DNA of 64,000 nucleotides, from NCBI GenBank assembly GCA_033182465.1, contig CP137319.1:1116001-1180000 (forward strand), read 5' to 3'. Numbering within the stretch: position 1 is the first letter of the stretch; each line of letters starts with the position of its first letter. This document shows, in pieces, positions 2-64,000 of this stretch. This DNA comes from Sanghuangporus weigelae. Lineage: Eukaryota; Basidiomycota; Agaricomycetes; Hymenochaetales; Hymenochaetaceae. Under the pieces are notes generated by a model, which saw only the letters and a list, made by a program, of their open reading frames with translations, was not told the origin of the DNA and made no database searches. Both the position numbers and the translations under genes were made by a program.

Positions 2-1443
2 GCGCATGAGATGCCGGGTGGACAGTATACGAACCTCATGGTATGTAGACAGAATCCTTTTGTTACTCAGAACTCATCGCATTTGAATTCTCGTCTGTAG
101 TTCCAAGCATCGCAGCTCGGGCTCGGAACTCAATGGGCTGGTCTGTGATATCTTGATCTTGAAAATGCCGTCCTATCTGACCGCGCGAACTTGCAGAGAT
201 TAAACAGAAGTATATTGAAGCCAATGAGCTGGTGCGTGAGATACATAGCCAGCATTCACACATTTTTACTAATGGTTGTCCATAGTGCGGAGATCTTATC
301 AAGGTACATTGCCATCTCCGATCGTACCGCGAATCAATATGCGTATTGAATCATCCTTCTCTTCCATAGGTTACGCCTTCTTCAAAAGTTGTGGGAGACT
401 TCGCGCAATTCATGGTCTCAAACAAGCTATCAAAACAAGACGTCCTGGAGAGAGCCGAGCAACTCGACTTCCCTTCGTCGGTTGTGGAATTCTTCCAAGG
501 TTATCTTGGCCAGCCTGTGGGAGGCTTCCCGGAACCTCTCCGTACGAAGATCATCCGCGATAAGCCACGCATCGACGGTCGCCCTGGCGCAACTCTGGAA
601 CCATTAGACTTCAAGAAGATCAAGGCCGAGCTACGTGCGAAGTACGGCAAACACATCACGGATACAGACGTTACATCCTACGTGATGTACCCCAAAGTGT
701 TCGAAGAATATCAAGGATTCCTTGAGAAGTTCGGGGATCTCAGTGTTGTGCCTACACGCTATTTCCTTGGCAGACCCGATGTAGGGGAGGAAATGCACAT
801 TTCGTACGTTTTGGGTTTCTCATTCGAGCACAAAAAGACCGATAAGCTAAAAACATACATAACCCTAGGATTGAAAAAGGAAAGACCCTGATTCTTCGCT
901 TGTGAGTGGTGCACGAGATAAAGTTTGTGGACGTGAAACTCATGTGTGATTTTTACAGAATGGCAGTTGGTCCTGTGATTGAGGGTAAGGCGACTAGAGA
1001 TGTCTGGATCGAAGTAAATGGAGAGGTCCGTGCCGTTGCCGTGGAAGACAAGAACAGTGCAGTCGAGACGTTTACACGGGAGAAGGCGACTGCTGCTCCT
1101 GGTTCGGTCGGTGCACCGATGTCGGGTGTCGTAGTCGAAGTCCGCGTGAAGGAGGGCCAAGAGGTGAAGAAGGGTGATATTGTCTGTGTGCAAAGTGCCA
1201 TGAAGGTCAGTTTGCCTGCATTTTCTGACCTGTATATCTCGAAACTGATAAATTATCTCCGTCTTACAGATGGAATCTGCAGTCAGCGCGCCGGTGTCTG
1301 GCCACATCAGGCGTGTCGTTGTGCAAGAAGGTCGGTCCTTCTATTCATTCTCCTTTCTTTCACCCGTAATGACCACCGTCTCTTCCATTCCTTCAGGCGA
1401 CTCGATCTCACAAGGAGATCTGATTACCGAGATTGTTCACTAA
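2..1443 (+). CDS. PYC: Pyruvate carboxylase, C-terminal part (5' end outside window)
   Basis: ATP-dependent biotin enzyme that carboxylates pyruvate to oxaloacetate (anaplerosis). Exons read here: 2-40, 101-140, 197-231, 286-303, 370-803, 869-901, 959-1205, 1270-1330 and 1397-1443. They join in frame to 317 residues. The first exon carries HEMPGGQYTNL of the carboxyltransferase domain. The middle holds the conserved carboxylase C-terminal region (FLGRPDVGEEMHI), and the end is the biotinyl domain with the biotin lysine in VQSAMKME. The intron after base 1205 falls exactly after this lysine codon (AMK|ME). Introns are 54-66 nt. The stop is TAA. In fungi the enzyme is usually cytosolic. The next gene encodes a small protein resembling this biotinyl domain. 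Family assignment is certain; only the 5' boundary is missing. Confidence 0.97.
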
Positions 1444-1695
1444 ATAGAACTGCCCTCAACTGCTTTCGACCGTTCGCCCATTTTCTTGATGTATGTGTGA
1501 TATTTGCAAGGCAGAAAGAAAGTCCAGTAGAATTGTAACGTAACATAACGAGACGGAGGTGGTCAACCCAAGATGTAGTTTTCCAAGAAATGTCCTATAT
1601 ATATTGTACATCCTGTCTCATAGTTAAGGAATTTGTTCTATCACAGCAGTGCAGTCAACGAGCGCTGGTGCCGTGTAAGTCAAGAACCGAAGAAG

Positions 1696-2333
1696 ATGAC
1701 GTCTGGGTCACCTGAATTGCCTGATCTGAGACTGGGTAAGGTCCAACATCATAAGATCCGTATCCGATTTCTTGTGTCCTCATCACGCCTTGATCTTGAA
1801 CCTCCATCTTAAGCACGACCTCCTTAGCTCACCATCGAGGCAAACGTATGTACGTACCTACCCTTCCTTGATCTTGACCTCTTCTGGTCCAGATTTGACT
1901 TCCATTCCATTCTCTGTTGATGCCTTAACATTCTGAGCTAGCTACTTAGAACCGAGAACCCAAATGTCCAATCCGGTAATCGCACTTGGTCCACCTGGTT
2001 CAGGTGTCCAGACTCCAGTAAGTGGAGGAGGAACTCCCGATCACATAAAGATCGCCGCTCCACTGCAAGGGACAGTCAGTATGAAAGTTTCGGAAGGGAG
2101 TCTGTTGAAAGCCGGGGACGTCATTGCTGTTCAGATTTCGGCGAAGGTCGGTCCATTTGATTGACCAGAACGAAATATGTGCTTAATGATTCACTTTCTT
2201 CATTTATTAACTATTATGTTGTTAGACCGAGCTGGAAGTCAAAGCGCCTAGAGCTGGCTACATCAGACGTGTTGTTCCCGATGGGACGAGTCTAAACGAG
2301 AATGGCCAAATCGCAGTGCTCGAGGTGGTCTGA
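1696..2333 (+). CDS. Small stand-alone biotinyl/lipoyl-like domain protein
   Basis: Exons 1696-1735, 1950-2146 and 2226-2333 join in frame to 114 residues. Residues about 48-114 form a biotinyl-type beta-barrel like the C terminus of the pyruvate carboxylase 250 bp upstream: an AP..G half, a GD...VQ..AK hairpin and a mirrored AP..GYIRRVV half. The hairpin lysine (about K79) is kept, but the methionines of the usual AMKM target are replaced (SAKT). The intron after this lysine codon matches the carboxylase intron in place and phase; the carboxylase's next intron is absent. The first 50 residues are Pro/Gly/Ser-rich. No catalytic domain is present. Inference: an old tandem duplicate of the carboxylase tail; whether it accepts biotin is unknown. 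The first exon is the least certain part; ATG 1964 is an alternative start. Confidence 0.75.
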
Positions 2334-2481: not shown

Positions 2482-3892
2482 TTACACGAAGGTCCCTACT
2501 TCTTTGAGACGACTTGCGGTTTCCTCGTGGAGCCTCACAACAAGTTCCTGAACAGGGATTTGTTCAATGAACATATTAATATACTGTCCGAAAGCAGAGT
2601 ATAAAGAGTATTGACTTACAGCAGCAGGTTCGATCTTGTTGATAAGTCCAACACCGGTACCGGACCAAAGCAACATACCGTCCGGATCACCTTCCTTAGT
2701 GGCTTTCTGGCATAGCCCGCGGATCTTTTCAACGTCTTCACCTCTTTCATACAGTTCTACAATCTTATTCTTAAGCGCCCGCCCGTCCACGCCCTCAGGC
2801 CATCCTAAAGTTCCTAGCATAGAGTCAAATGCCATGCTGCGTACAGTGGAGGTTCCGTGTGCTGCAAGAAGCGCAGCTTTCTGTGCATCCGTGTAAAGCG
2901 ATTCGGGCGTGAGGAGAAAACGAGTTCCAAGGGCTACTCCCGAAGCACCAAGCGTAAGGATGGCAGCAATCTGACTGCCGGTTGACAGACCACCTGCCGC
3001 GATCACTGGAGGACAAGGCTTCTTGTGCTGGCTTGCCGAATTGCTGTTAAACTCATTCAAGATTTCGGGTATAAAGCTAAGTAAAGTGGGTGCGGCTCCA
3101 TGACCGTGCCCACCAGCTTCGATTCCTGTGAAGTGTGCAAGTAAGTTTTCGAGAAGAATGTTAAGAATCTAATTTGCCTTTAAGGCCAGAAGCATCCGAT
3201 CATCGTAGCCATAGAACAAAAAAAACGATACCTTGTGCAACAAGAACATCCGCATCCCATTCATACACCGCTCTTCGTGCTTCATCCAGTGAATTCACAA
3301 GAATGAATACTTTCGTCTTTCGCGGCTGCGATTTTCTTTCGTCCGAAGTCCGAACGACACGCACCCACTTGCCAAGATCGTTGCCGAATGCGAACCAGAC
3401 TGCAGCGACACGGGCTTCTAGAGCGATTGATAGCAACTCTGCAACCTTTCCATCGGGCTTGTCAAGTATCCACGCAAGGAAACCTACACCGATTGACAAA
3501 GTTTCGCGCGATCTATCGGACCCCGCCTTGGAACTGGCAGAGTCTTCCTGTAAGATTGAACGTGCCAAATCAAGCTCTTTCCGAAACGCCACCACGTCTA
3601 GGTACCCTGTTCGGACAAGTGGATTGCACGCGAAGTAGGAGTTGTGAAGATAAGCAGATTGAGTTTGGCCATGGCTGTAGAAATGTAACTTTACCTGCTT
3701 GTAATAAACCAAATCCTCCTGCGCGTGATACACGCGCGGCAAGCTCGCCGCCGCTAGCTCCCGCCATCGGAGCTGCAATAATTGGCGATGTGATGCCTCG
3801 AAAAATGGTGATTCAATCCCGATGTAAAATCGAACGAGGCAGAATAGAAAGATATGCATACCAAGCAAGCGTGTAATCGGAGTGTTGATCAT
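2482..3892 (-). CDS. Nitronate monooxygenase (2-nitropropane dioxygenase family)
   Basis: FMN enzyme that oxidises alkyl nitronates and detoxifies propionate-3-nitronate-like compounds. Exons in coding order: 3862-3892, 3695-3796, 3232-3606, 2620-3125 and 2482-2547, giving 359 residues in frame. Family marks: N-terminal ITSPIIAAPMAGASGGELA, the GFGLLQAG turn, the glycine/histidine motif GIEAGGHGHG, the FMN-phosphate region VIAAGGLSTG, and ALGTRFLLTPES. The TIM barrel is complete. Introns are 65-106 nt. The ATG at 3892 fits the usual family start (NTPITRLLG); an in-frame ATG at 4021 would add 43 unconserved residues. It is convergent with the upstream biotinyl-like gene and divergent from SmB, sharing a roughly 360 bp promoter. 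Confidence 0.93.
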
Positions 3893-61945: not shown

Positions 61946-64000
61946 ATGGCCGCGACGAAGCCCATCACATTTTGCGAGCATCTTCAGCTCTCAAGCCTTG
62001 GCATCCAGCCTGCGTCAATCTCCTTCCAGGTGAACAGAATTCGACACTCTGACACAACGACGCGTTTTTCCTGATCATGCATGTTGCAGACTTTGACGCT
62101 TGAGAGTGATCATTTCATCTGCGTACGAGAAAAGGTCAATGAACAGAACCAGGTTGTTATTATTGACCTCGCGGACGCCAACAATGTTCTTCGTCGGCCT
62201 ATCACTGCCGACTCCGCCATAATGCATCCCCACAAGAAGATACTTGCTCTGAAGTGTCCGTACTGCTTTTCCAACGTGCTCTTCTGTACTGACGTGCTCC
62301 TTCTCTATAGCTGCGCGAACACTGCAAGTATTTAACATAGAAACGAAGCAAAAGGTCAAGTCGCACATAAACAACGAGGACGTAGTATTCTGGAAATGGG
62401 TAACGGAGTCGACCATCGGGATGGTCACAGATACAGCAGTCTACCATTGGTCCATCTCTGACCAGACGTCTCCGCCCACAAAGGTTTTCGACCGACATGC
62501 GACTCTTGCTGGCGCACAGATCATCAACTATCGTGTGTCAGGCGACGGGAAGTGGATGGTGCTTATTGGTATTTCCGGGAATACGACAAACCCTTCTGCA
62601 TTTAAAGTCAAGGGTGCGATGCAGCTCTACAGCATCGAAAGATCAGTCAGCCAGCCTATCGAGGGCCATGCTGCTGCATTCGCAGAATTGAAACTCGATG
62701 GTCATCAATTCCCCACCAAGCTTTTCACATTCGCTGTCAGGACTGCAACCGGTGCCAAGGTATGGGCCACAAGCACGAGAAGACTAACTCTGACTAATGC
62801 ATGCCCATAGCTTCATATAGTCGAAATTGACCATCAAGCGTCGGATCCTGTGTTTGCCAAGAAGGCTGTTGATGTATTCTTCCCTGCAGAAGCGACGAAT
62901 GATTTCCCGGTAGCAATGCAGGTCTCAAAGAAGCACGGCATCGTCTTTTTGGTCACCAAATTCGGTTTTATTCATTTGTACGACCTCGAATCTGGTGCCT
63001 GTGTTTACATGAATCGTATCAGCGGGGAGACTATCTTCGTGACTGCGGAACACGAATTGACGAACGGAATCATTGGCGTCAACAGGAAAGGTCAGGTCCT
63101 CAGCGTTAGCGTTGACGAAACCGCTATCATCCCGTATATTCTTGGAACGCTCAACAACACAGAGCTTGCTTTCAAGCTTGCAAGTCGGGCGAACCTGCCT
63201 GGTGCAGATGATTTGTACATCAAACAGTACCAAGCTCTGTTCCAAAGCGGACAATTCAACGAGGCTGCAAAGATCGCTGCGAACTCTCCTCGCGGGATCT
63301 TACGAACGGCTCAGACGATTGAAGCATTCAAGACTGCACCTGCACCTCCAGGCGGATTGTCACCTATTCTTCAGTACTTCGGCATTTTGTTGGAGAAAGG
63401 AGAATTGAACCAGCTGGAGTCCCTGGAGCTTGCTCGACCTGTTCTCCAACAAGGTCGTAAGCAGCTTCTGGAGAAATGGCTGAAGGAGAACAAGCTCACT
63501 TGCAGTGAGGAGCTGGGTGATATCGTACGTCTCCATGACATGACACTTGCCCTCAGTGTTTATCTGCGCGCCAACGTACCGAGTAAAGTTATTGCTTGCT
63601 TTGCTGAGACGGGTCAAACGGATAAGATTGTCCTCTACTCGAAGAAGGTTGGATACACTCCGGATTATACTGCGCTCTTGCAGCACGTCATGCGTACCAA
63701 TCCGGACAAGGGTGCCGAGTTCGCCTCGCAGCTTGTCAACGAAGAATCAGGTCCATTAGTTGACATCGATAGGGTATGTACCGTTCTAATCTCGCAAAGA
63801 AGTAACCCATGCTTATTCGCCTTGATTTGTAGGTTGTCGATATTTTCATGTCGCAAAATATGATCCAGCCAGCAACGTCGTTCCTTCTTGACGCTTTGAA
63901 GGATAATAAGCCAGAGCAGGGTCACTTGCAGACACGCTTGCTGGAATTGAACCTTGTTCATGCGCCTCAGGTTGCTGACGCAATTCTTGGAAATGAGATG
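61946..64000 (+). CDS. CHC1: Clathrin heavy chain, N-terminal part (3' end outside window)
   Basis: Exons 61946-62029, 62090-62255, 62311-62759, 62811-63773 and 63833-64000 encode the first 610 residues in frame; the gene runs off the window. N-terminal beta-propeller: [40 protein letters not shown], and [20 protein letters not shown]. The linker and start of the alpha-solenoid follow ([39 protein letters not shown]). It forms the triskelion that coats vesicles at the trans-Golgi and plasma membrane; the propeller binds adaptor clathrin boxes. The donor at 62255 (GTCCGT) is inferred from frame ([12 protein letters not shown]). Confidence 0.96.

Follow-up and report, generated by a model that had tools for sequence, protein, structure and literature searches.

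A small gene for a stand-alone biotinyl-type barrel lies behind the pyruvate carboxylase (PYC) gene of Sanghuangporus weigelae. Several results support its descent from the PYC tail, comparison of the two coding sequences indicates that it is probably a selected gene, and its altered hairpin suggests, with moderate confidence, that the barrel is poorly biotinylated or not biotinylated at all. We regard the small gene as plausible, though not as categorically new.

Structure of the locus

The window, i.e., the whole stretch of 64,000 nucleotides that was analyzed, starts inside the PYC gene, whose stop codon (TAA, 1441-1443) was read directly from the sequence. The small gene follows on the same strand, with 252 bases between this stop and its ATG at 1696. 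Splicing of 1696-1735, 1950-2146, and 2226-2333 yields a product of 114 aa, in which K79 lies within QISAKTEL. Both introns of the small gene (214 and 79 nt) are of the GT-AG type, and neither the frame nor the splice sites are disrupted in the way that would mark a pseudogene. The features of the region are as follows, with the basis of each assignment in parentheses:

1080..1205, + strand: PYC exon, 3' part, ending in the biotin lysine (...VQSAMK) and encoding the first half of the PYC barrel (read and spliced)
1270..1330, + strand: PYC exon directly after the biotin lysine, MESAVSAPVSGHIRRVVVQE plus 1 base (read and spliced)
1397..1440, + strand: last coding exon of PYC, followed by the stop at 1441-1443 (read and spliced)
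1596..1604, + strand: TATATATAT stretch, with 91 bases between its end and ATG 1696 (motif only)
1696..1735, + strand: putative, uncertain exon 1 of the small gene, MTSGSPELPDLRL plus 1 base (splicing)
1828..1845, + strand: possible 18-nt mini-exon of an alternative 5' structure with a product of 120 aa (in-frame splicing)
1950..2146, + strand: exon 2 of the small gene, encoding a linker and the first half of the barrel, with AAG (K79) as its last codon (Pfam and splicing)
2147..2225, + strand: intron of the small gene, 79 nt, phase 0, GT-AG, with a PYC intron at the matching site (splicing)
2226..2333, + strand: exon 3 of the small gene, encoding the second half of the barrel and the stop codon (Pfam and splicing)

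A preliminary description of this DNA had proposed a stand-alone biotinyl barrel of 114 aa about 250 bp past the PYC stop. The exons, the strand, the gap, and the barrel are borne out, with the exception of the first exon (1696-1735), which is without independent support and leaves the 5' end uncertain. Its 214-nt intron is long in comparison to the last two introns of PYC (64 and 66 nt), and an alternative exists, in which the mini-exon at 1828-1845 would divide the long intron, in frame, into 92 and 104 nt. An alternative start at ATG 1964 in exon 2 would give a product of 96 aa that is all barrel and derives from the last two exons. An exact 12-nt repeat was observed inside the long first intron (1788-1799 and 1866-1877, 78 bp apart); it may reflect an internal duplication, which would account for the length of this intron. 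Upstream of the small gene, the TATATATAT stretch at 1596..1604 could be a promoter element that serves the small gene, or a 3' signal of PYC.

The surroundings include a convergent nitronate monooxygenase gene at window positions 2485-3168 on the - strand (Pfam NMO, E 3.4e-22), the 3' end of which lies 148 bases past the stop of the small gene. Clathrin heavy chain exons are located at 62253-63860 of the window on the + strand (Clathrin_propel, Clathrin-link, Clathrin_H_link).

The product of the small gene contains a Biotin_lipoyl domain (Pfam PF00364) with a score of 28.7 bits (E 1.2e-6), above the curated cut-off of 22.1, and in an alignment with biotinyl domains K79 aligns with the biotin lysine of the hairpin. 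Its best phmmer matches among solved structures are small carrier chains (1o78, E 4.1e-7; 1dcz, E 2.9e-6), and the entry 1z6h ("Biotin/Lipoyl Attachment Protein"), which we take to be a B. subtilis protein, was matched with only E 0.2. With 114 aa and 26.1 bits against the TIGR01235 cut-off of 1114.45, it is not a full pyruvate carboxylase, which would unite biotin carboxylase, carboxyltransferase, and biotinyl domains in a single chain, and it does not reach the cut-offs of the stand-alone biotin carrier equivalogs NF004547 (20.8 against 75) and NF006079 (14.9 against 95).

Descent from the carboxylase tail

Apart from position, four results favor the proposal that the small gene descends from the tail of PYC. 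A six-frame search of the own genome with the product of the small gene, extended to E 10, returned only the gene itself and PYC (E 0.04). The local alignment score of the product against PYC is 114, compared to a mean of 28.9 and a maximum of 55 in 2,000 shuffles, and against five other barrels it is 58 (methylcrotonyl-CoA-carboxylase (MCC)-like), 51 (succinyltransferase E2), 49 (urea carboxylase), 43 (acetyl-CoA carboxylase), and 43 (branched-chain-type E2). The best NCBIfam match covers positions 1073-1142 of the 1143 positions of TIGR01235, i.e., the extreme C-terminus of pyruvate carboxylase, at a score far under the full-length cut-off, as is expected for a fragment. Finally, in a tree of 15 rows, 8 of them loci from a scan of prokaryotic contigs (6 biotinyl and 2 lipoyl), the small gene product and PYC form a clade with support of 98/94; the branch lengths are 2.49 and 0, respectively, and the placement of long-branch rows, including the small gene product, is unsure. 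In a check for recent gene conversion between the two genes, the best 8-codon stretch had 20 of 24 bases identical (permutation p 0.019, uncorrected for multiple looks).

The intron argument, which the preliminary description had put forward, is weaker than stated there. A phase-0 intron does indeed lie directly after the lysine codon in both genes (after 1205 in PYC and after 2146 in the small gene), confirming the same place and phase. However, the succinyltransferase E2 gene of the same genome (L003, G000:C8), with a barrel that falls on the lipoyl side, has a GC-AG intron directly after its lipoyl-lysine codon as well (exon end GACAAG, intron start GCAAGT; L003:1621-1748). Since introns may thus have arrived at the post-lysine site more than once, we set the shared site aside as strong proof of descent. 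PYC furthermore has an extra intron (1331-1396) that the small gene is without.

We noticed post hoc that the 12-mer GAAGGTCGGTCC covers two splice donors that do not correspond to each other, namely those of the last PYC intron (1327-1338) and of the second intron of the small gene (2143-2154). It occurs in 7 copies in the 33.9 Mb genome, 2 of which are these donors, compared to 10 copies of a reversed-pattern control.

An altered biotin site

The hairpin of the small gene product reads SAKT in place of the AMKM of PYC. The comparison set consisted of ten biotinyl domains, four from this genome and six bacterial or archaeal ones from 18 fetched loci. All ten carry Met directly before the lysine (K-1), where the small gene encodes Ala. 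The loss of both flanking methionines, as noted in the preliminary description, is true relative to PYC; however, two other biotinyl domains of this genome likewise have Thr at K+1 (SMKT in the MCC-like and AMKT in the urea-carboxylase-like protein), and therefore only the loss at K-1 is unusual. Across the alignment, 12 of 23 conserved columns are retained in the small gene product, as are all 10 further, mostly hydrophobic columns. The changes in the other 11 conserved columns include conservative ones and ones common to PYC, and 3 fall inside the AMKM tetrapeptide.

Published work bears on the residue before the lysine. Its mutation in yeast PYC1 was reported to compromise biotinylation (PMC2753649). 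E. coli BirA reportedly does not biotinylate the AMKS of S. tokodaii (Sulfolobus), and the target lysine of Aquifex sits in ALKV (PMC3048393), so that Met at K-1 is not universal. With Ala at K-1, the small gene product is less likely to be an efficient biotin acceptor.

The target lysine itself was said to remain, and K79 is indeed present and aligned with its counterparts. However, its codon, AAG, fills donor positions -3 to -1, the last three exon bases before the GT, and splicing alone could hold the lysine in place. Its retention is therefore confounded and was set aside as proof of biotinylation.

Constraint on the copy

Between PYC and the small gene, 61 codons were compared. Identical bases number 34, 37, and 20 at codon positions 1, 2, and 3 (56, 61, and 33%), with part of the conservation at positions 1 and 2 stemming from the PYC branch. 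The pN is 0.43 versus a pS of 0.74, which is near saturation, and pS exceeded pN in 99.9% of 1,000 bootstraps. At the 26 residues common to both proteins, the same codon is used 8 times.

We compared these values with a neutral simulation (1,500 runs), in which a 61-codon copy drifts unconstrained and PYC changes synonymously only. At 0.5 substitutions per site, 0.3% of the runs matched the observed divergence at position 3; the share rose to 3.6% at 0.6 and to 10, 23, and 44% at 0.7, 0.8, and 1.0, making neutral distances of 0.6-1.0 compatible with position 3. At 0.6, 15% of the runs had no stop codon. Leaving indels aside, copies that had no stop and at least the observed identity at positions 1 and 2 made up 10, 4.3, 0.9, and 0.07% at 0.6, 0.7, 0.8, and 1.0. 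At the same distances, the chance of no frameshift is 2.6, 1.4, 0.76, and 0.22%, given an assumed 0.05 indels per substitution. If the two are independent, the joint chance does not exceed about 0.3% (with 0.03 indels per substitution it would be about 1%, and with 0.1 less; all of these rates are assumed). Because simulated neutral copies this old rarely keep both frame and similarity, constraint on the copy is likely for most of its life, and the small gene is probably a selected gene. The long branch of the small gene product (2.49) would fit relaxed constraint and, like the 11 altered columns among the 23 conserved ones, counts against this reading.

Codon usage was set aside as coding evidence. 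The small gene has no codon bias (z 0.52), and this is uninformative, as two of 11 stretches of real genes used as controls score similarly low (0.65 and 0.63), with the other nine at 2.3-6.0.

Other biotinyl and lipoyl genes and searches for relatives

A Biotin_lipoyl scan of this genome pointed to 8 places, none of them a second stand-alone barrel; as the scan proceeded exon by exon, split genes may escape it, and the small gene itself is also unlisted. Three of the names are backed by further matches: the succinyltransferase E2 by a family scan (TIGR01347, E 1.7e-66), the urea carboxylase by a neighboring exon with TIGR02712 as its best match (E 2.8e-16), and PYC by a Pfam PYC_OADA match in its tail. 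By eye, we take others to be an MCC-like alpha subunit, a branched-chain-type E2, an acetyl-CoA carboxylase, an E3-binding-protein-like gene, and a pyruvate dehydrogenase E2; family scans of three genes named by eye went no further than broader families (E2, biotin-carboxylase, or biotin-carrier). The BPL/LplA/LipB ligase family is represented in the genome by at least one gene, with a single match at G000:C2:692187-692534 (E 1.9e-21).

Searches for relatives of the small gene confirmed none of 8 pattern-matching stretches in IMG/VR (viral) and none of 143 in GTDB genome contigs (prokaryotic). A second GTDB scan with an alignment of PYC and the MCC-like protein retrieved 18 loci, of which 6 biotinyl domains entered the hairpin comparison and 8 loci the tree. 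The excluded rows were L023 (which meets masked bases), L027 (nearly identical to L034), and those of the lipoyl type or with half a domain; the two biotinyl rows left out of the comparison also read AMKM. In the literature, none of the titles and abstract beginnings among the matches listed describes a fungal gene for a stand-alone biotinyl protein derived from PYC.

Possible roles and alternative explanations

The explanation that we prefer, and to which we give about an even chance, is that the 3' end of the PYC gene was duplicated in tandem and that the copy turned into a small gene of its own, which selection kept for a stand-alone barrel that carries little or no biotin and binds a partner of biotinyl domains. 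Selection would have long retained the product in folded form (both its translation and this selection are what we infer), and the barrel would take biotin poorly or not at all. The partner, guessed from ancestry, would be one that grips biotinyl domains, either the biotin ligase or the carboxylase and carboxyltransferase sites of PYC, and the role would be that of a pseudo-carrier or modulator rather than of a CO2 carrier. A more specific version, in which this pseudo-biotinyl protein from the PYC tail occupies the biotin ligase or the PYC active sites without biotin and thereby tunes the amount of active PYC, is quite doubtful.

Rather unlikely, in our view, is a free-standing acceptor, whose K79 would be biotinylated by the ligase and which would store or sense biotin or act as the carrier of another carboxylase. 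The lysine kept at the hairpin, the MCC-like SMKT of this genome, which has the same residues at K-2 (Ser) and K+1 (Thr), the presence of a biotin/lipoate ligase family gene, the small carrier chains as best solved matches, and the ALKV site used in Aquifex (PMC3048393) would all agree with such a protein. However, it would have to accept biotin next to Ala in a position occupied by Met in ten other domains and reportedly sensitive to mutation in yeast PYC1 (PMC2753649), and its lysine codon may have been retained for the splice donor. The alternative splicing of PYC is very improbable: since both introns are phase 0, the exon ending in ...AMK could splice in frame to the last exon of the small gene and provide PYC with another barrel half, yet this requires an intron of 1020 nt, compared to 64 and 66 nt for the last two of PYC, and leaves the retention of the first barrel half (1950-2146) unaccounted for.

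Explanations without a present function differ in when function would have ended. A gene that was functional for most of its history and is now unexpressed, with breaks yet to accumulate, would suit the absent codon bias, the long branch, and the unproven first exon; the intact frame and GT-AG introns, together with all 10 further hydrophobic columns kept, speak against recent death, which we consider unlikely. A relic of the PYC tail that has drifted without function ever since the duplication, one of the options in the preliminary description, is highly unlikely. Evolution that is fast relative to PYC and the absence of codon bias would be in line with drift, but simulated neutral copies seldom stay intact at the observed divergence, even at the distance of 0.6, and less often farther out.

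If the small gene is expressed and conserved, it would represent a carrier domain that has separated from its enzyme, with the cofactor site largely lost and the fold pattern kept, and a simple natural case for roles of biotinyl domains other than CO2 transfer and for regulation of holoenzyme formation by decoys. If it is not expressed, it would amount to one old partial tandem duplication.

Comparison with known systems

The lipoyl domain of the succinyltransferase E2 of this genome (L003) is a related barrel and shares the intron directly after the lysine codon, whereas it differs in its ETDK motif, its GC-AG intron, and its score to the small gene product (51 versus 114 for PYC). By sequence, the transcarboxylase 1.3S subunit (1dcz, 1o78) and 1z6h resemble the small gene product in size and domain; unlike these small carrier chains, it is without Met at K-1, and it scores far under the NCBIfam carrier cut-offs. 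The BCCP domain of PYC (TIGR01235 C-terminus; PF00364) differs from the small gene product, which stands alone, reads SAKT for AMKM, is without the last PYC intron, and has a far longer branch, whereas the two are alike in sequence, barrel pattern, post-lysine intron, and adjacency.
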